From: Clytia hemisphaerica
Lineage: Eukaryota > Cnidaria > Hydrozoa > Leptothecata > Clytiidae
Assembly (NCBI GenBank): GCA_902728285.1
Contig: CACVBU010000615.1
Coordinates: 445,764 to 509,763, forward strand
Length of the DNA stretch: 64,000 bases
Reading direction: 5' to 3'
In this document: one piece after another, positions 6,141-61,852 of the stretch
Layout: each line of letters starts with the position of its first letter
Position numbering within the stretch: the first letter of the stretch is position 1
The notes under the pieces: generated by a model
Told to the model about the DNA's origin: nothing
Seen by the model: the letters and a program-made list of their open reading frames with translations, nothing else
Databases searched by the model: none
Position numbers and translations under genes: made by a program

Positions 6141-7100
6141 TGAGAAGGGGGTGTCAAATTGATGAGGAGCGCAAACTGTATCTTTGCCCTGAAAAAGCTA
6201 TGACATCCGAAATTGCTTCAGAAATTCTTAACTTTTTGAGATTTAACCCGGTTAACCACAGTATTAGATGCAAATGATGTATGCACCAAAATAGAAATCA
6301 GAATGTAAAATAATAACGCGGAAGTGGATCTAGATAGATTTTGGGTACTTATACTTTTAGCTCAGAAAAACGGATTTCAGAAGATAACGATCTGTATGAA
6401 CCTCTAAATTGGCAATAAAAGAAAAATGATTGAGCATCCATTCAAGAGTTGCAGTCTTTCCAATGTGTTCAAATGTAGCTTGCCAATCCTTCCTCTGTCC
6501 TGTTCAGTTAGACTGGCCGTTGACCCTGTGAAAACAATCGAAGGATTGTCTAAAAGTTCTAAATTACTAGGAAAAAATTCGGATTAAAATGTGTATTATG
6601 TTTCACTATCATTAAAAAATTGAGAAGGGGGTGTCAAATTGATGAGGAGCGCAAACTGTATCTTTGCCCTGAAAAAGCTATGACATCCGAAATTGCTTCA
6701 GAAATTCTTAACTTTTTGAGATTTAACCCGGTTAACCACAGTATTAGATGCAAATGATGTATGCACCAAAATAGAAATCAGAATGTAAAATAATAACGCG
6801 GAAGTGGATCTAGATAGATTTTGGGTACTTATACTTTTAGCTCAGAAAAACGGATTTCAGAAGATAACGATCTGTATGAACCTCTAAATTGGCAATAAAA
6901 GAAAAATGATTGAGCATCCATTCAAGAGTTGCAGTCTTTCCAATGTGTTCAAATGTAGCTTGCCAATCCTTCCTCTGTCCTGTTCAGTTAGACTGGCCGT
7001 TGACCCTGTGAAAACAATCGAAGGATTGTCTAAAAGTTCTAAATTACTAGGAAAAAATTCGGATTAAAATGTGTATTATGTTTCACTATCATTAAAAAAT
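6141..7100 (+). repeat. perfect tandem duplication, 2 x 480 bp
   Basis: Bases 6141-6620 and 6621-7100 match line by line with no difference seen, and identity stops at both outer edges. The unit contains no convincing gene. Perfect identity implies a very recent duplication, ongoing gene conversion or an assembly duplicate. Confidence 0.95.
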
Positions 7101-7114
7101 TTCCAAATATGAGG

Positions 7115-8929: not shown

Positions 8930-9205
8930 TCCATCCAAAGAGGAAAATCGAGACAAGAAAGTAGCCAAGGGAGGGGGAGGGCAGACTTGGGAAAAAGAGG
9001 TGTGGGAATGTGCCGCTGGTTAGGTTACCTTTTTTCACCTGAATGAGCACCAGGTAGGAGTCCCAAAAACACCAAAATAGAAAAGTTAGTCTCTCGTAGG
9101 GTACGTTTTTGGGGAATTTTGGGAAATTTGGGAAAAAAGTGGTCACCTTTTTCGAAAAAACGAGTCCCACGTAGGGTCCATTTTTCGAACCTTTGCGGGG
9201 AAAAT
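8930..9205. mobile_element. decayed poly-G-capped element
   Basis: The internal words 'gtaggagtccc', 'tctcgtagggta' and 'gagtcccacgtagggtcc' have the same plan as the 29730-30033 copy, read in the other direction. The poly-G/poly-C caps and target duplication are not preserved. Confidence 0.55.
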
Positions 9206-9442
9206 GTAGAGTATAAAACAACATAATCGTTTCAAATGATTGACGTCAAACAAATATATATTGGAGAGAAGTGCAAAAAAGTGTAAAAATAACATATAAC
9301 ACCAGACCAGAAAATTATTATTTATGTCATTTTGGTCAGCTTTGTGTGTTGCGACTTTCGAAGTGAATGAATAATGTTCTCAGTTGAAAGAATATTCGAA
9401 TATTATAAGAACTTACAACTAAGAACATCGTTCTTTCACTTC

Positions 9443-19449: not shown

Positions 19450-19545
19450 CTAGGAGACGAAACCAGAAATGATCCAACAGAAATGCGCTACCTGTTTCCT
19501 AACATTCTAATTTTTACAAATCAAGTAAATATTAGGGATTATAGC

Positions 19546-19705
19546 AAAATAACACCCTCCCGGGGAGGGGGTATTGGGTTGGCTGATTTTTGGCCTCGTA
19601 TTTGCGGTTGGGACCTCCAAAAACCCGAGCAAAAACCGACCCTTAGAGAGACTTTTTTGAAATATTTTTTTCGCTTTTTGAAAAATTCCCTACCCTTATT
19701 AGAGA
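19546..19705. mobile_element. truncated poly-G-capped element
   Basis: 'cccggggagggggtattggg' and then 'gacccttagagagactttt' repeat the plan of the complete copies at 21605 and 32539. The right cap and target duplication are absent. Confidence 0.55.
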
Positions 19706-19817
19706 GAGTTTTTTGAATTTTTCCACTCTAAATCAAAAGTTCTTTCTAGAAATCGTGAATTTTCCGACCCAATAAGAAATAAGAATCATCGTTGTTGAAG
19801 ATCTGATTCTCAATCTA

Positions 19818-21604: not shown

Positions 21605-21954
21605 ACCGGGGGTACTAGGTTTGCGAGGTGACAGGTATGTCCGAGCCGAGAATCGAAAATCGACCCTTTGAGAGACAAAATTTTGGTGATTTTGGGACCC
21701 TTTGAGAGACTTTTCCTAAATTTTGGTCCATTTTTTCCAAATTATGGTTTGATTTTCACCAAATTTTGGTCAAAATTTTTGGAAATCGTGACCCTTTGAG
21801 AGAGAATTTTTTGATTTTCGTGATTTTGGGACCCTTTCAGAGACTAACTTTTGAATTTGTACCCCTTTGAGAGACTTTTGAGGAATGAGAAAAGATACCC
21901 TTATGACTCGCACATACCCGGCACCCATTTTGCCTAAGTACCCCCCCCCCCGGA
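21605..21954. mobile_element. poly-G-capped element, copy A
   Basis: It begins ACCGGGGGTACTAGG and ends CCTAAGTACCCCCCCC...GGA. The perfect 8-bp direct repeat GTCCACAG lies at 21597-21604 and 21955-21962. The interior repeats 'gaccctttgagagac' with variants. Subterminal 'aggtatgtccg' / 'cgcacatacc' are also inverted. No coding capacity. Confidence 0.9.
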
Positions 21955-22852: not shown

Positions 22853-24217
22853 CTATACCGGTACCGAACCGGTCAATATCATATGTTTTAAGTCTGGTGG
22901 AAAATCTTCATTTTCTTCTACAAGTACTTTCGCAATTTGCGATTTCTGTTCGTTTGTACCATCACCAAGTCTTAATAAAATGGCACGATTTTTATCGTTT
23001 TCATAGCGTTTTTGTAGCTTATATTCCTCATATCTCTTCCACATGAAATAAACAACAAAACAAATGATAACAATAAATTCGAACGCACACATTGCGTATA
23101 GAATCTTCAGTTTTTTAGCATCATCCTCATTAGGGATGTGTTCTTTAACTATGATATATTCCGTGCGGTTGTTTTGTCTCTTAAGTGCAACCATGTTTGG
23201 ACTGAGTGGTTGTGGCGGAGGTTTGTTAACCTCGACAACTGGTTTTTCGGTACCGTAAGTGTATCCTTCACAAACATTCGTTTGACAGTATTTACCTTTG
23301 AACCTTTCTTGGCATTCGCATGTGAATGTTTCCTTGTTACCAACACATTTTCCTTCATTCTTGCATGGATCTAAATCACATAGGGAACAGTCATCAAGCT
23401 CTTCATGCGCATCCATAATATGGGCATCTACATGATACGGTGTAGCGCAATAAGCCCAGAATTTGTACTTAAGCTTGAAATTGACTTTATAGTTCATGGC
23501 GTTACGGCAAGAACAATCTAACGGGTTATCAAGCATGTTGATCTTTCTGGTGATGTCGAAGTCCTCGAATGCATTCTCTGGAATGACTCTGATCTTGTTG
23601 GATGCAAGACCAAGCATTTTCAACCGCATTCCTTTGAAAGCATGTGATTGGATGGTGACAATCTCATTCCTGGTCAACGCTAGATGTTTCAGTTTTGGTA
23701 AAGTGTTGAAAACGTTATTGCCAACTGTTAAGAGTTTATTATCTTGAAGGAGGATGGAATATATGGATCTCAATTCATCGAAAACACCTTCTTGTAAATG
23801 TGCGATTTTGTTGAACTGCATTTCCAAGTAAACCAAGTTGTTCAACCCAATAAAAGATCCCTCATCTATCTCGATGATTTCATTTTCATTTAATACTAGT
23901 TTCCGAAGATTACTAAATCCCCGAAAAACGTAGATTGGGATTTTCTTCAATTTGTTCTTGGAGATTTCCAATGTTTTCAAACGGCGTAAATGAAACATTG
24001 AACTTTCGCTAATGCTTTCTAAATTGTTTGATTTCAAAACTAATTCGGTGATACCATCTGGGATCTCCAGCGATGAAAGATCTGATTCGGTCATATCCAC
24101 GTTCTCACAAGTCATTGTAGTATCGGAACAATAACATTGTGTTGGACATGCGTACATTGTACCAAATAAATTGCATATAAAAAATAATGCGAAAAGCAAA
24201 ATGCTCCTCATCTTCAT
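22853..24217 (-). CDS. LRR and EGF domain single-pass membrane receptor
   Basis: The product is a probable cell-surface adhesion or signalling receptor of 454 residues, encoded without an intron. Residues 1-23 are a signal peptide. An LRRNT cysteine cap begins CPTQCYC, followed by about seven leucine-rich repeats (roughly 56-235), an LRRCT cap (235-280), one EGF-like domain (about 285-312, CKNEGKC...CECQERFKGKYC), a proline-rich stalk, a transmembrane helix (about 373-393) and a 61-residue basic-then-acidic tail. The tail ends VPV, which would suit a class II PDZ domain. I chose the ATG at 24217 because it starts directly on the hydrophobic signal; an upstream in-frame ATG at 24289 would bury it, and 24211 is also possible. 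The architecture recalls LRR/EGF proteins such as vasorin, but I cannot assign an orthologue. Confidence 0.93.
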   Translation of the reverse strand: MKMRSILLFALFFICNLFGTMYACPTQCYCSDTTMTCENVDMTESDLSSLEIPDGITELVLKSNNLESISESSMFHLRRLKTLEISKNKLKKIPIYVFRGFSNLRKLVLNENEIIEIDEGSFIGLNNLVYLEMQFNKIAHLQEGVFDELRSIYSILLQDNKLLTVGNNVFNTLPKLKHLALTRNEIVTIQSHAFKGMRLKMLGLASNKIRVIPENAFEDFDITRKINMLDNPLDCSCRNAMNYKVNFKLKYKFWAYCATPYHVDAHIMDAHEELDDCSLCDLDPCKNEGKCVGNKETFTCECQERFKGKYCQTNVCEGYTYGTEKPVVEVNKPPPQPLSPNMVALKRQNNRTEYIIVKEHIPNEDDAKKLKILYAMCAFEFIVIICFVVYFMWKRYEEYKLQKRYENDKNRAILLRLGDGTNEQKSQIAKVLVEENEDFPPDLKHMILTGSVPV

Positions 24218-24428
24218 TTCCCCTCTTCTCAGAGTTATAATTTCAGATAAACTGAAAATCAAAGTGCACTCAAATATGGGTCTTTGCACTGCTCAAAATT
24301 TCTGCAAAGTTGTATTCAATGATTTTTCCACTTTTCCAGACCAAGTTTGTTTATTTCCGACAAGTGTTTGCTTCCAATGGATTTACGTTATGCCGGGCTC
24401 TTTTTTCCTCTTCTTTCTTTTTTTCTAA

Positions 24429-29720: not shown

Positions 29721-29729
29721 ATATAGGTC

Positions 29730-30033
29730 CCCGGCGGGGATGCTCCGATGAGGTTCGAAAAGTATGACTCTACATGGGACTCGTTTTTTCAAAAATTTTG
29801 CCGAAATTTAGGAAAAAAGTGGCCCTGAATGGGACTGAAATTCCAAGATTTTCTCAAATTTTCTACTTTTATTTCCCAAAGATTTTCCAAAAAAGGCACC
29901 CTACAAGGGACTGATTTTTTTATTTTAGTGTTTTTGCGACCCTACCTGGGACTCAGGAGGTTAAAAAAGGTACCCTGACCAGCGGCGCATCCCCGTAACC
30001 CATTTTGCCGCCCTAGTACCACCCCCCCCCGGG
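29730..30033. mobile_element. poly-G-capped element, copy F
   Basis: The left cap CCCCGGCGGGG is worn and the right cap is CTAGTACCACCCCCCCCCGGG. The target repeats are TATAGGTC (29722-29729) and TATATGTC (30034-30041), 7 of 8 matching. The internal word is 'gaccctacctgggactc' and variants, about four times. Confidence 0.82.
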
Positions 30034-32538: not shown

Positions 32539-32893
32539 CCGGGGGGGGGGGGGTACTTAGGCAAAAATAGGTGCTGGGTATGTGCGGACGGTAAGGGTCG
32601 GGTTTTTCACCTTTCAAAGTCTCTCTAAGGGTTACAAAAATCAGGAAATTTCAAAGTAGTCTCTCTAAGGGTGGGGAAAATCACGATTTTTTGAAAAAAA
32701 TTTTGATTTTGAGAGAAAAAATTACAAAAAAGTCTCACTAAGGGTAGGAAATTTTTGAAAATCAGAGAAAAATTTTCGAAAAAGTCTCTCTAAGGGTCAC
32801 TTTTTCACTAAAATTTGGTCTCTCTAAGGGTCGGTTTTCGGAGGTCCCGTCCGCACATACCCCTCATTCACCAACCCTAGTACCCCCCCCGGG
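32539..32893. mobile_element. poly-G-capped element, copy B
   Basis: CCGGGGGG...GTACTTAGG opens it and CCTAGTACCCCCCCCGGG closes it. The perfect 8-bp repeat TCTCGACG lies at 32531-32538 and 32894-32901. 'gggtatgtgcggacgg' / 'ccgtccgcacatacccc' are inverted. The internal word 'gtctctctaagggtc' occurs about six times. Confidence 0.93.
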
Positions 32894-41254: not shown

Positions 41255-41600
41255 CCCGGGGGGGGGGGCAGTCAGGCAAATTGACCGACGGGTATGTGCG
41301 GCGGTTAAGGGTATCTTTTTCAAAATATCAGAAATGCACTGTAAGGGTGGACTTTTGATAAATGCACTGTAAGGATGGAAATTTCAGCAAATCTGGGAAA
41401 AATTGCAAATATTTGCTCGAAAATGTTGATTTTTTTTGCTCTAAACATGCTCTAAAAGAGTTTAAAATTTGAAAAAATGCACTGTAAGGGTATGAATTTC
41501 ACCAATTTTTTTCTGCACTGTAAGGGTGCGATTCTAAAAGCCAATTTTTTCGCCGCACATACCGTCAGTTGGTAAACCCACTGCCCCCCCCCCCCCCGGG
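41255..41600. mobile_element. poly-G-capped element, copy C
   Basis: It runs from CCCGGGGGGG...CAGTCAGG to CCCACTGCCCCCCC...GGG. The perfect 8-bp repeat CACCTATC lies at 41247-41254 and 41601-41608. 'gggtatgtgcggcgg' / 'cgccgcacatacc' are inverted. The internal word 'gcactgtaaggatgg/gggtg' occurs about five times. Confidence 0.93.
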
Positions 41601-41627
41601 CACCTATCCCATCTGAAAAGAACTCTT

Positions 41628-41822
41628 CGGAGAGGGTACCTAAGCAAGTGGAGAGTACGGGTATGTACCACCCTTAAGAATGCCTTTTGGAAACCTTGAA
41701 GTCCCTGTAAAGGTCAGAAAAATCAGAAAATTAAATATCGTTCCTACTAAGGGTCTCATGGTCGAGAGTCGGGCAGCACGTACCCGTTAGCACAAACCTC
41801 CCTTTGTGCCCCTCCCGGGAGA
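41628..41822. mobile_element. decayed poly-G-capped element
   Basis: 'gagggtacctaagcaagtgg', 'acgggtatgtacc' and a far end 'ggcagcacgtacccgttag' followed by 'cccctcccggga' preserve the family outline without intact caps. Confidence 0.55.
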
Positions 41823-41911
41823 TAACGATAACGAGCCAAAACATCTTGGGAAAGATTGCGCCTTTGGGGTGAATAAATACGAACTGTAATTAAAAGTATT
41901 TCTACTTTTAA

Positions 41912-46131: not shown

Positions 46132-47177
46132 ACGAGGGGTAAATCACTTCGAAAAAAGCGTACGAAATGATTTTTGATTTTTGATTTTTTTGTGATTTTT
46201 TGATTTTTTCTGTGATTTTTTGATTTTTTTGTGATTTTTTTGTGATTATTTGATTTTTTTGTGATATCTTTGTGATTTTTTGATTTTTTGTGTTTTTTTT
46301 TGATTTTTTGATTTTCTTGATTTTTTTGTGATTTTTTTTTTTTTGATTGTTTTGTTTTGATTTTTTGTGATTTTTTTTTTGTGATTTTGATTTTTTTGAT
46401 TTTTGTGATTGTTTTTGTGATTTTTTGATTTTTTTTGATTTTTTTTGTTGTATTTTCTTTTGATTTTTTTGAGTTTTTTTTTGTTTTTTTGTGATTTTTT
46501 TGATTTTTTTTTTTTTGATTTTTGATTTTTTTTGTGATTTTTTGTGATTTTTGATTTTTGTTTTTTTGCTTTTTTTTTTGATTTTTTTGTGCTTTTTGGT
46601 TTTTTGTTGTTTTTTTTTTGTGTGTTTTGTTTGTTTTTTTTTTGTGATTTTTGTTTTTTTTTTTGTGTTTTTTTTGTGTTTTTTGCTTTTTTTTGGTGCT
46701 TTTTTTTGATTTTTTGCTTTTTGTGCTTTTTTTTGTTTTTTTTTTTTCTTTTTTTTTTTGTGCTTTTTTTGTGGCTTTTTTTTTTTTTGTTTTTTTTTTT
46801 GCTTTTTTGCTTTTTTTGTTTTTTTATTGCTTTTTTGTTTTTTATTTTTTTTTGTTTGTTTTTTTTATTTTTTGATTTTTTTTTTTTTTTGTTTTTTTGA
46901 TTTTTTTGATTTTTTGATTTTTTTTGATTTTTTTTTTGTTTTTTTTTTTTTTGATTTTTTTGTGCTTTTTTTTTTTTTTTGTGATGTTTTTTTTGATTTT
47001 TTTGTGATTTTTTTTGTTTTTCTGTTTTTTTTGATTGTTTTTTTTTTGTGATTTTTGTGATTTTTTTGTGCTTTTTTATTTTTTTGTGATTTTTTTGTGA
47101 TTTTTGATTTTTTTTGTGATTTTTTTGTGATTTTTCTAAGAAGTGTACGAGATTTTTTCGAGTAATTTACCCCTCGT
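46132..47177. mobile_element. inverted-end element filled with a 1-kb T-rich tract
   Basis: The ends ACGAGGGGTAAATCACTTCG and 'cgagtaatttacccctcgt' are inverted. CATCGA is repeated outside both (46126-46131 and 47178-47183). Between about 46150 and 47140 the + strand is almost entirely T with interspersed 'gtga', 'gatt', 'gctt', and almost no A runs or C. Long Phe-rich frames here are artefacts. No transposase is visible. Confidence 0.85.
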
Positions 47178-47909: not shown

Positions 47910-48087
47910 CCCGGGGGGGGGGGGGTACTAGAGTTGAGGGATGTTGGGTATGTGCGTTTCCGACCCTTGGAGAGATTGATTTTAAAAAATTTTCCGACCC
48001 TTAAAGAGACATTGAAAGGTGAAAAAACCGACTCTTAAGGCACGCACATACCAGCTCCAATTTTTGCCTAAATACCCCCCCCCCGGG
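47910..48087. mobile_element. poly-G-capped element, copy D (shortest)
   Basis: It runs from CCCGGGGGGG...GTACTAGAG to CTAAATACCCCCCCCGGG. The target repeats are CATCTGCA (47902-47909) and CATCTACA (48088-48095), 7 of 8 matching. 'gggtatgtgcg' / 'cgcacatacc' are inverted. Only two internal words ('cgacccttggagagatt', 'cgacccttaaagagaca') are present. Confidence 0.9.
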
Positions 48088-59530: not shown

Positions 59531-59903
59531 TACTGTCGAGAACACTCACGTTAGAGTTGATTATGGCTTGTGTGACGTTTATGTAAGGCTAGTGTTGAAT
59601 TATCTTTTATACTAATGGCCAAAATACTGGGTGTTCCAATAAAAAGTCCCCCTTTTTGAAGTGTATATTCTTGAGTTCTATGAATTGTTAAAGAATCAAT
59701 TCTTTTGCATTGGTAAAAGAGGAAGGATAAACTCAAATTTTGAGGGGTCGTTTGTCAAATTTGATCACCTAGATCAAAAGTTATAGTCTAAATGCGAAAA
59801 CAAAACTTTTCAAAAAAGTCGAAAAAGGAGAAAAATGAGGGTATTAAATTTATTGTATGACAAGACACTATTGTTTTTTTTTTTCATCATCTGGAAATGT
59901 ATT

Positions 59904-60092
59904 TCAATTTTCACCAAAGCACTTACTTACACAATTAATCATTCCTGCAAAGGCGTTTCGAATCATTTGGGGGTCAAGATTAGCTGCAACATTTCTGACT
60001 GAAGCTTTAAATTGATCAAGGATCTGCGCAAATTTGTGAGTTGCTCCCAGATTTCTTGTTTCATGTAAACCCCACAAAAAGAAATCACACAC
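59904..60092 (-). pseudogene. mariner transposase C-terminal remnant
   Basis: The - strand encodes CDFFLWGLHETRNLG and a further about 45 residues ending CFGEN. The phrase D-F-F-L-W-G is the hallmark of the last part of the catalytic domain of IS630/Tc1/mariner transposases, carrying the third acidic residue. The preceding catalytic motifs and DNA-binding domain are absent because the poly-G element cuts the frame at 60125-60132 and little transposase-like sequence resumes beyond 61090. It is non-functional. Confidence 0.8.
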
Positions 60093-60132
60093 ACTCCTCC
60101 ATTGTTGACCACCTTCCTTGGAAACAGACCAC

Positions 60133-61082
60133 CCGGGGGGGGGGGTACTAGGGTTTGCGAGCTGACGGGGGGGGGGTGCCGCCCGACTTTCGAACTTTGG
60201 ACCCTTACCGGGACTAAAAAGGAGAAAACAAAGGTAAATTTTGGGAATTTTACGACCCTTAGCGGGACTAATTTGACCAAATTTCGATCTTTCAGGGGGT
60301 AAAAAGTTGAAATTTTCCTATTTTTCCGACCCTTACTGGGACTGAAATTTGATTTTCTGATTTTTCCGACCCTTAGCGGGACTTTGGAAGTCCAAAAAAG
60401 GTACCCTTAACCCTTTAAGTGCCGATGTCGTATATATACGACATGGGCTATATAGGAGGGCGAAGCCCTCCTGTAATGCCCAGTTTGAGTTAGAAATCGT
60501 TATTTTTGGTCGAACTCGTAGGAATTAGATTGTCCTTTATGGTCAAGCAAAAAAAAATTCAAAAGTGAGTCTTTCCAGCGAAATTTTAAGCAAAAAAGTC
60601 AAAAAAATGCAAAAAATTGACAAAAATTCACTTTTTTGAGATTCTGACCGTTTTTTGACTATTTTTGGTCAACGAGTGATCCAAGAACCTCCAAATTTGG
60701 CCCTGTTTTACTTTATTCTGTCTTCTAGTGAATTGATTTGAAATTTTACCACTGGGCACCTTTTCATCAGTTCAGTCAGGTCCGCGCAGCGGGCCTGACT
60801 GCTTTAATTCCCTAACCTACCCCCCCCCCCCTTGGCCGCCGCCCACCACGCCCTTCCTAAATCGGGCGGCGCCGAAGGCGCCCAAAAGAAAGAAGAGACT
60901 CTAAGCTATCCAACGAGCTATATACGAGCTTCTAATTCCTTCTAGATCAGGAGATATAAGCCCTTAAAGTTTGAACTAGCGATTTTTTAAAAAAAACTTA
61001 GAAAAAAGGACCCTGGCACTCAAAGGGTTAAGGGCGGCACATATCGTACCCTCCATTTGCCTAAGTACTCCCCCCCCCCGGG
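60133..61082. mobile_element. poly-G-capped element, copy E, carrying a nested insertion
   Basis: CCGGGGGG...GTACTAGG opens it and CCTAAGTACTCCCCCCCCCGGG closes it. The perfect 8-bp repeat CAGACCAC lies at 60125-60132 and 61083-61090. 'gggtgccgcc' / 'ggcggcacata' are inverted. The internal word 'gacccttagcgggact' occurs about four times. A piggyBac-like element splits its right part. Confidence 0.93.
60411..61027. mobile_element. piggyBac-like non-autonomous element
   Basis: TTAA lies outside both ends (60407-60410 and 61028-61031). The ends are CCCTTTAAGTGCC and GGCACTCAAAGGG, inverted with a small difference. CCC ends plus TTAA are diagnostic of piggyBac-type transposition. The subterminal palindrome 'gtcgtatatatacgac' and 'gcgaagccctcc' are notable. 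No transposase is present. Confidence 0.92.
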
Positions 61083-61366
61083 CAGACCACGAAGAGACTT
61101 TGATCGTTAATGTATTGATAAAAGAAGAGTTTCTTTATGATGATTTAATAAGATTTAATAACCCCTCATTTTTCGCCTTTTTAAACTTTTTTTTTGAAAA
61201 GCAATGTTTTAGCATTTAGGCCATAGCTTTTGATCTAGTGGACCAAATTTAACAAATGACCCCTCGAAATTTAAGTTTATCATTCCTAAATAGATGATTC
61301 TTTAACAGTTCATAGAACGCGAGAAAATACACTTTAAATAAGAGAACTTCTTTTTGGGACACCCGG

Positions 61367-61852
61367 TACATCAAAATAAGATCAAAGGTTAGAAGTTTAA
61401 TTGGACTAAAAAATGAAGATAAAAATGCAAAAAAAAGAAGAACACCTGGTATTCTGTTCAATGTAAAAATTTATCTATTTCTTGTTCAACACCAATGTAT
61501 ACGTTTGCACAATAATGCATTATTTTTGAAACCACACTACGTTTCCACTAGAAAAAAAAAACCCTGTAAACATAAAATAAAAACTACAATTAAATTCTTT
61601 AAAATTTGGATTAAATAGGTCCATAATATCTATATTAAAACCTAAAACAAACCAATTAAGAACCAAATGAACAAAAAAATGTAAACTATGACGAAGATAA
61701 ATTAAAACAAGACATTAAACAATAAACTGGGACAATATGGAAAAACAGCAGAGGATTAAGTAAAAGGGTATGCCAAAAAATCCTTCCAAGATTCGAATCC
61801 GAGGAGAAAAACTGCTAGATCATAGAGAAATACTGTGAGGTGCTTATATATA
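61367..61852. other. intergenic, no recognised feature
   Basis: A-rich sequence, with no gene recognised. Confidence 0.4.

Follow-up and report, generated by a model that had tools for sequence, protein, structure and literature searches.

Subfamily-specific word arrays in a poly-G-ended MITE family of Clytia hemisphaerica: repeated sites that may have been rewritten together

The subterminal repeats of hAT transposons are among the closest described counterparts of the repeats analysed here. In Hermes, the BED domains of the transposase bind subterminal repeats, and 17 and 14 AAG(T/C) motifs have been mapped to the two ends of the element as putative sites (PMC10368747). For hAT-derived domains, a further study describes diverse motifs, and all four of the hAT-encoded ones match the subterminal regions of their own element (PMC8097297). 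Diversity is thus seen on the protein side in these CGG-binding proteins, whereas in the family described here it is the site side that is seen, with whole sets of sites rewritten together. Our elements resemble the hAT elements Hermes, Ac/Ds and Tol2 in having short repeated sites and 8-bp duplications; in the latter, the sites are interspersed near the TIRs and are bound by the BED domain of the transposase. They differ in that the word is ~14 bp long, occurs up to five times in homologous slots over the whole length of the element, keeps one orientation and carries a lineage-specific half, and in that their ends, CCCGGGGG, are unlike the general hAT consensus.

In En/Spm (CACTA) elements, TNPA-binding motifs of ~12 bp are repeated at irregular spacing near the ends. 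Those elements have CACTA ends and a 3-bp duplication, unlike the CCC plus poly-G ends and the 8-bp duplication found here. The poly-G/poly-C tracts of Caenorhabditis are likewise dispersed G/C runs in an animal genome; the available text does not tie them to transposon ends (PMC2211496), whereas poly-G is the element end in the present family. Among the top-listed titles and abstract openings of open-licence papers, none names this family or subfamily-coded words.

A family of poly-G-ended MITEs and its word arrays

The whole stretch of DNA analysed, hereafter the window, comprises 64 kb of the C. hemisphaerica contig CACVBU010000615.1. The poly-G elements have CCC and a G-run at their ends and an inverted block GGTATGTGCGG, and measure ~350 bp in total; in subfamilies a and b the G-run is followed by TACTAGGG at end A and by TACTTAGGCAAA at end B. 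The exact end motif GGGTATGTGCGG has 2,570 matches (1272+1298) in the 417-Mb assembly of 951 contigs, against 15 for a reversed-pattern control. In the program-made list of open frames, none of at least 120 aa lies inside E1-E5, and the start of E6 is overlapped by two, of 137 and 147 aa. Exact direct repeats, 7 bp or longer, flank 30 of the 44 copies having both ends, with 8 bp as the commonest length (13 copies); 14 of the 44 have no direct repeat of at least 6 bp, and shuffled flank pairs gave none above 6. Short, non-coding, with inverted ends, high copy number and target-site duplications (TSDs), the poly-G elements are a MITE family of non-coding, non-autonomous DNA transposons. The copies in the window are listed below.

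E3, 32539..32893, minus strand: full MITE of subfamily a, read in the A-to-B direction on the minus strand, with CC/GGG and poly-G/poly-C ends and the flanking direct repeat TCTCGACG(C)
E3 word w1, 32817..32832, minus strand: GACCCT.TAGA.GAGACC
E3 word w2, 32783..32798, minus strand: GACCCT.TAGA.GAGACT
E3 word w3, 32731..32746, minus strand: TACCCT.TAGT.GAGACT
E3 word w4, 32658..32673, minus strand: CACCCT.TAGA.GAGACT
E3 word w5, 32618..32633, minus strand: AACCCT.TAGA.GAGACT
E3 terminal half-word w6, 32576..32599, minus strand: ACCCTTA running into the TIR block GCACATACCC, without the subfamily code
E1, 21605..21954, plus strand: subfamily g, TSD GTCCACAG
E1 words, 21662, 21696, 21790, 21830 and 21861, plus strand: TTGA/TTCA.GAGA
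E2, 29728..30033, plus strand: subfamily e, words at 29766, 29821, 29897 and 29938
E4, 41255..41600, minus strand: subfamily c, direct repeat CACCTATC(CC)
E4 words, 41334, 41362, 41477 and 41513, minus strand: TACA.GTGCAT/G
E5, 47910..48087, plus strand: short, two words (at 47962 and 47996); near-TSD CATCTGCA/CATCTACA by eye, no exact repeat in the script search
E6, 60133..61082, plus strand: subfamily f, TSD CAGACCAC, read by eye
E6 words, 60200, 60254, 60328 and 60368, plus strand: TACC/TAGC/TACT/TAGC.GGGACT
E7, 8972..9215, minus strand: degenerate, subfamily e, words at 9088 and 9163
E8, 41618..41826, minus strand: old copy (j), words at 41700 and 41740
E9, 19545..19800, plus strand: degenerate, a-like, words at 19638 and ~19691; no B end found

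E6 is interrupted by a nested, TTAA-flanked element (60407-61031; termini CCCTTTAAGTGCC...GGCACTCAAAGGG), which by its flanks we take to be piggyBac-like and which contains a G/C-rich stretch at ~60780-60890. Inverted arms flank E6 (59720-59817 with 61190-61287, 85%; 59625-59717 with 61276-61368, 78%), and E6 may therefore sit inside a larger inverted-repeat element (59625-61368).

The window was scanned for words with the consensus GACCCTNNNNGDGACT, leaving the middle four bases unscored (maximum score, 12), and 20 first-order Markov shuffles of the window served as background. Sites scoring 11-12 numbered 22, all of them inside nine element copies that total 2,677 bp, compared with a shuffle mean of 0.35 and at most 2. 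At a score of at least 10, 24 of 27 window sites lay inside elements (shuffle mean, 5.65; maximum, 9). The original prediction of repeated words inside these elements is therefore borne out. All the words that it quoted exist, the positions given for them being element starts and not word starts: GACCCTTTGAGAGAC lies at 21662 and 21696, GTCTCTCTAAGGGTC at 32784 and 32818 with its complement at 19638, GCACTGTAAGGGTG at 41336 and 41515, and GACCCTTAGCGGGACT at 60254 and 60368. The fifth, GACCCTACCTGGGACTC, occurs once in the window, at 29938; the words of E2 consequently do not share one centre, and near-uniformity within a copy, also predicted, does not extend to that centre. To the five copies from which the prediction was drawn, the degenerate E7, E8 and E9 and the short E5 are added.

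The words of any one copy share a strand and follow each other from end A towards end B; they fill slots w1 to w5, up to five per element; at w6 the half-word ACCCTTA continues into the terminal block (ACCCTTA...GCACATACC). The spacing is irregular within a copy, as had been predicted, and largely conserved between copies. Seven of the 10 subfamilies (a, b, e, f, h, i, j) have w4 and w5 40-41 bp apart; the corresponding distances for c, d and g are 28, 29 and 31 bp. The spacings (bp) are as follows.

Subfamilies a and b: 34, 52, 73, 40
Subfamily f: 54, 74, 40
Subfamily e: 55, 76, 41
Subfamily h: 66, 73, 40
Subfamily i: 73, 40
Subfamily j: 40
Subfamily c, departing from the common scheme: 36, 115, 28
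Subfamily d, departing from the common scheme: 35, 115, 29
Subfamily g, departing from the common scheme: 34, 94, 40, 31

Words are inherited within subfamilies and change together between them

The 61 copies examined came from the window itself, from 20 stretches measuring ~10 kb, from 8 loci measuring 2.5-3 kb and from 20 targeted stretches. L007, a repeat of L006, was excluded, and for the first 41 copies profile matches scoring <75 or spanning <180 bp were set aside, E5 among those. Since the stretches outside the window were picked by exact GGGTATGTGCGG matches, the sample is biased to subfamilies a-d. The A end matched that of a/b, c or d at 0.9 or above in 36 of the 61 copies, and every one of these 36 carried the word of its own subfamily in at least one slot: TAGAGAGAC was present in 18/18 a/b copies and TACAGTGCA in 6/6 c and 12/12 d copies, the w2 of subfamily d being TAGAGTGCA (TAGA) in 12/12. 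Among the remaining 25, the A end was poor or absent in 19 and recognisable in six, one copy each of e, f, g, h, i and j. In subfamily a, TAGT stands at w3 in 10 of 12 copies; L042 is without it and L044 has TAGG.

Homogenisation within individual copies, which the original prediction had proposed, is unsupported because the words follow the subfamily, and we reject ongoing copy-by-copy homogenisation: individual copies inherit their subfamily's word. The prediction had named word variants that simply follow subfamily descent as the outcome that would speak against it, and this is the pattern of the individual copies (18/18, 6/6 and 12/12). The predicted divergence between copies is real and strong as concerted word change between subfamilies, not copy by copy. 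Within subfamilies a-d, words, spacers and TIR differ from the subfamily consensus at 1-5% of positions. Differences are fewer in words (37/2213) than in spacers (171/6342; Fisher p 0.006), with p values of 0.001 in subfamily d and 0.09 in subfamily a and no such difference in b and c. This deficit is weakly consistent with constraint on the words.

Subfamilies were compared with each other through one representative each (10 subfamilies, 40 words, slots assigned by hand); E7 is outside this set, and for f, g, h, i and j a single copy each is known, apart from fragments. Identity over word positions 7-15 was 0.91 within a subfamily, 0.58 with the same slot of another subfamily and 0.57 otherwise. 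The middle four bases gave 0.86 within a subfamily vs 0.51 in the same slot and the right six bases 0.90 vs 0.65; the left half gave 0.88 and 0.86, values inflated by the partial use of the outer bases in word finding. The middle four bases had no part in word finding, and the contrast is therefore not a product of the search pattern. The flanks behaved in the opposite way. For the 16 bp upstream, identity was 0.39 within a subfamily and 0.47 in the same slot, and for the 16 bp downstream 0.33 and 0.44, with a permutation p of 0.0003, the floor, in both cases. With the comparison limited to the six representatives most distant from each other (a, c, e, f, g, h), identity of the code was 0.90 within vs 0.53 in the same slot, that of the downstream flank 0.36 vs 0.41 (p 0.002) and that of the upstream flank a marginal 0.40 vs 0.42 (p ~0.06). 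The contrast between words and flanks is also present among the nine window copies alone, where the first word of E7 was placed in w3 by spacing and has flanks matching w2 of E2.

Base by base, positions 2-6 are 0.89-1.0 identical in all comparisons, and positions 7-15 give 0.73-1.0 within a subfamily vs 0.31-0.65 in the same slot, except for 11 (0.88) and 13 (0.79), which are conserved throughout. The regime changes at position 2 and at positions 15-16, and from position 17 onward same-slot identity is usually above that within the subfamily; a small within-subfamily excess is seen at positions -1 (0.42 vs 0.28) and 1 (0.53 vs 0.44). Between subfamilies, concerted change is confined to the words, with edges defined to within ~1-2 bases, while the slots are homologous. 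ACCCT is common to all subfamilies and the nine bases that follow it differ by subfamily, the right halves reading GAGAC, GGGAC, GTGCA or GATAC according to lineage; subfamilies i and j are not homogeneous. The words are a repeated sequence-specific site at conserved positions that evolves apart from its spacers.

Within the word, right half and centre can differ in behaviour. In E2 the right half GGGACT stands in 4/4 words, and the centre reads ACAT, GAAT, ACAA and ACCT by slot; E6 likewise has GGGACT in 4/4 words beside slot-specific centres. The centres of subfamily e are kept by slot, with AC[AG]T at w2 in E2, L022:6654 and E7, [AG]AAT at w3 in E2, L022 and L013:734, and AC[AG]A at w4 in 4/4 copies (E2, E7, L013:734 and L022:6654). 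The halves of this subfamily are not fully fixed: exact ACCCT is found in 2/4 E2 words, and a different right half occurs in one or more words of each of the copies L022:6654, E7 and L013:734.

Proposed bipartite binding sites and the competing explanations

Change confined to the words, slot after slot on a homologous scaffold, agrees with selection for a binding partner that all slots share. The reading that we prefer, with a probability of roughly one half, is that the words are bipartite binding sites of a trans-acting protein, probably the transposase, and have been rewritten together by selection. Each word would be a putative recognition site, ~14 bp long, at which a sequence-specific DNA-binding protein acting in trans, most likely the family's own transposase, binds; it would consist of a near-constant half, ACCCT, and a right half that varies with the lineage. 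If the specificity of the protein drifted or switched, only elements with a matching word set would still be mobilised; the slots would then change together, and the spacers would go on evolving slot by slot. Since their right halves are uniform and their centres slot-specific, E2 and E6 appear to speak for two half-sites, albeit with an imperfect fit. The earlier idea that the sites coevolve with a transposase or a host factor is, short of proof, the one that fits best. We infer the transposase as the likeliest partner because the Hermes transposase binds subterminal repeats and hAT-derived motifs match the subterminal regions of their own elements. Against this, the words point one way through the whole element, a layout unlike that of most known transposase sites, which take their arrangement from each end; the one-way orientation is the weakest point of the transposase reading.

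The main rival is gene conversion limited by homology, or template switching, from one word to another, for instance during gap repair after excision. One variant would be spread over the slots of a master copy, and subfamilies would amplify from the converted master, with tracts ending near the word edges because the spacers resemble each other too little to be included. Such a process, which we consider rather unlikely, accounts for homogenisation of the words only and for the complete sets within subfamilies. Recombination between words is itself plausible, in that E9 and subfamilies e and f seem to have lost one word unit between neighbouring words; the odd w2 slot of subfamily d (TAGA in 12/12) could be an incomplete conversion, and the small excess at positions -1 and 1 a tract remnant. 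However, no homogenisation is seen at position 1 (0.53 within subfamilies), directly beside the near-invariant ACCCT, and a conversion tract across the word should also take the centre, so that the slot-specific centres beside uniform right halves in E2 and E6 count against conversion. The w4-w5 spacing kept in 7/10 subfamilies would require double switches without length change, and 14-16 bp is very short for a gene conversion tract.

The partner of the words could be not the transposase but a host DNA-binding factor or a silencing pathway, such as a zinc-finger repressor or a small-RNA target. Sites in one orientation over the whole element are what would favour this possibility, as typical transposase sites are focused on the ends. 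Yet escape from silencing would be expected to favour diverse words and not identical ones, and at w6 the ACCCT half meets the terminal block and is thereby tied to the element ends. We hold a host factor to be distinctly doubtful. Very improbable is descent alone, by which duplication of one word unit would have rebuilt each subfamily, its words then being alike through recent common origin: the words do follow subfamilies at the copy level (36/36 clear a-d copies), but an array rebuilt from one unit would copy the flanks with the word, and the flanks are homologous by slot across subfamilies (among the six distant ones at p 0.002 downstream and only ~0.06 upstream). Of the two mechanisms raised at the outset, replication slippage is unlikely in view of the conserved slots and flanks and the conservation of most spacings, and so is gene conversion where it would take whole units, since the flanks are not homogenised.

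If the preferred reading of co-rewritten binding sites is followed further, the words may form a two-part address, a near-universal ACCCT handle joined to a nine-base lineage code. Tentatively, and with less confidence than for the binding sites themselves, the family might then record repeated specificity switches, four to five dispersed sites having been rewritten together per lineage, with coexisting subfamilies, descended from one ancestor, each answering only to its own trans-acting protein. How a transposase and its numerous sites shift specificity in concert is hard to study because independent changes are scarce in most families. In this genome, a single homologous scaffold carries six clearly distinct word sets (a, c, e, f, g, h), and its slots and spacers provide an internal control. 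The coevolution between a DNA-binding protein and its several sites would become directly testable, in a clean case for telling selection from short-tract conversion.

Superfamily, candidate partners and neighbouring features

The 8-bp target duplication, the commonest length among the 44 paired copies, is that of hAT elements and also occurs in other superfamilies. The terminal bases of hAT elements are CAGGG-like, a terminus that the ends of this family do not have. MULE target duplications measure 9 bp (8-11); duplications of 9-11 bp were found in 13 of the 44 copies, mostly where flanking C/G can extend the match. The hAT domain PF05699 has at least 99 matches in the assembly, and in the tails of 20 of these genes (~900 bp 3' of the domain) the family end was found in none, so that no hAT gene is linked to the elements in this set; the closest tail, L066, has 2 of 11 mismatches to the family end and no adjoining G/C run. 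For the MULE transposase domain PF10551, 91 matches are listed, covering the domain alone, and these could not be linked to the elements. B ends of subfamilies c/d without w6 occur at 6 sites genome-wide, and the 5 that were fetched (all but C416) yielded no autonomous element; in these and the 20 hAT tails, neither an autonomous element nor a binding protein was found. B-end patterns had no matches in viral and prokaryotic collections.

Several loci were considered as candidates for an autonomous or long element and rejected. L071 and L073 are subfamily d copies, L072 is a subfamily c end, and at L069 and L070 a wordless B end lies within a shared repeat of ~1.2 kb. The two instances of that repeat (L069:1-1189 and L070:2795-3998) are 93% alike and continue beyond the element end as far as the retrieved sequence reaches. 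An insertion seems to have split the copy at L010, and L009 combines one MITE with a separate B end. The copies L017:3966 and L047:252, on the same contig ~180 kb apart, have the identical TSD TACATAAT, which suggests duplication of the locus and not two insertions.

No known RNA family at gathering score and no tRNA were found in the window. An LRR/EGF protein lies at 22853-24292, in keeping with the animal origin of the DNA. A T-rich repeat of ~1 kb, TTTTTGATT-like, occupies 46168-47135 and has long Lys-rich open frames on the reverse strand; an open frame at L011:6008-6481 has the same start (ITRKNLVHFLEKSQKNHKKNQKSQK) as the Lys-rich frame. Similar-looking frames of ~350 aa at L005:1960-3012 and L016:5960-7024 have a Cys-rich, PHD-like stretch and resemble ORF1 of non-LTR elements. 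At 6141-7101 of the window, a 480-bp unit is tandemly duplicated (2.0 copies, 100% matches), and this duplication is either very recent or an assembly effect.
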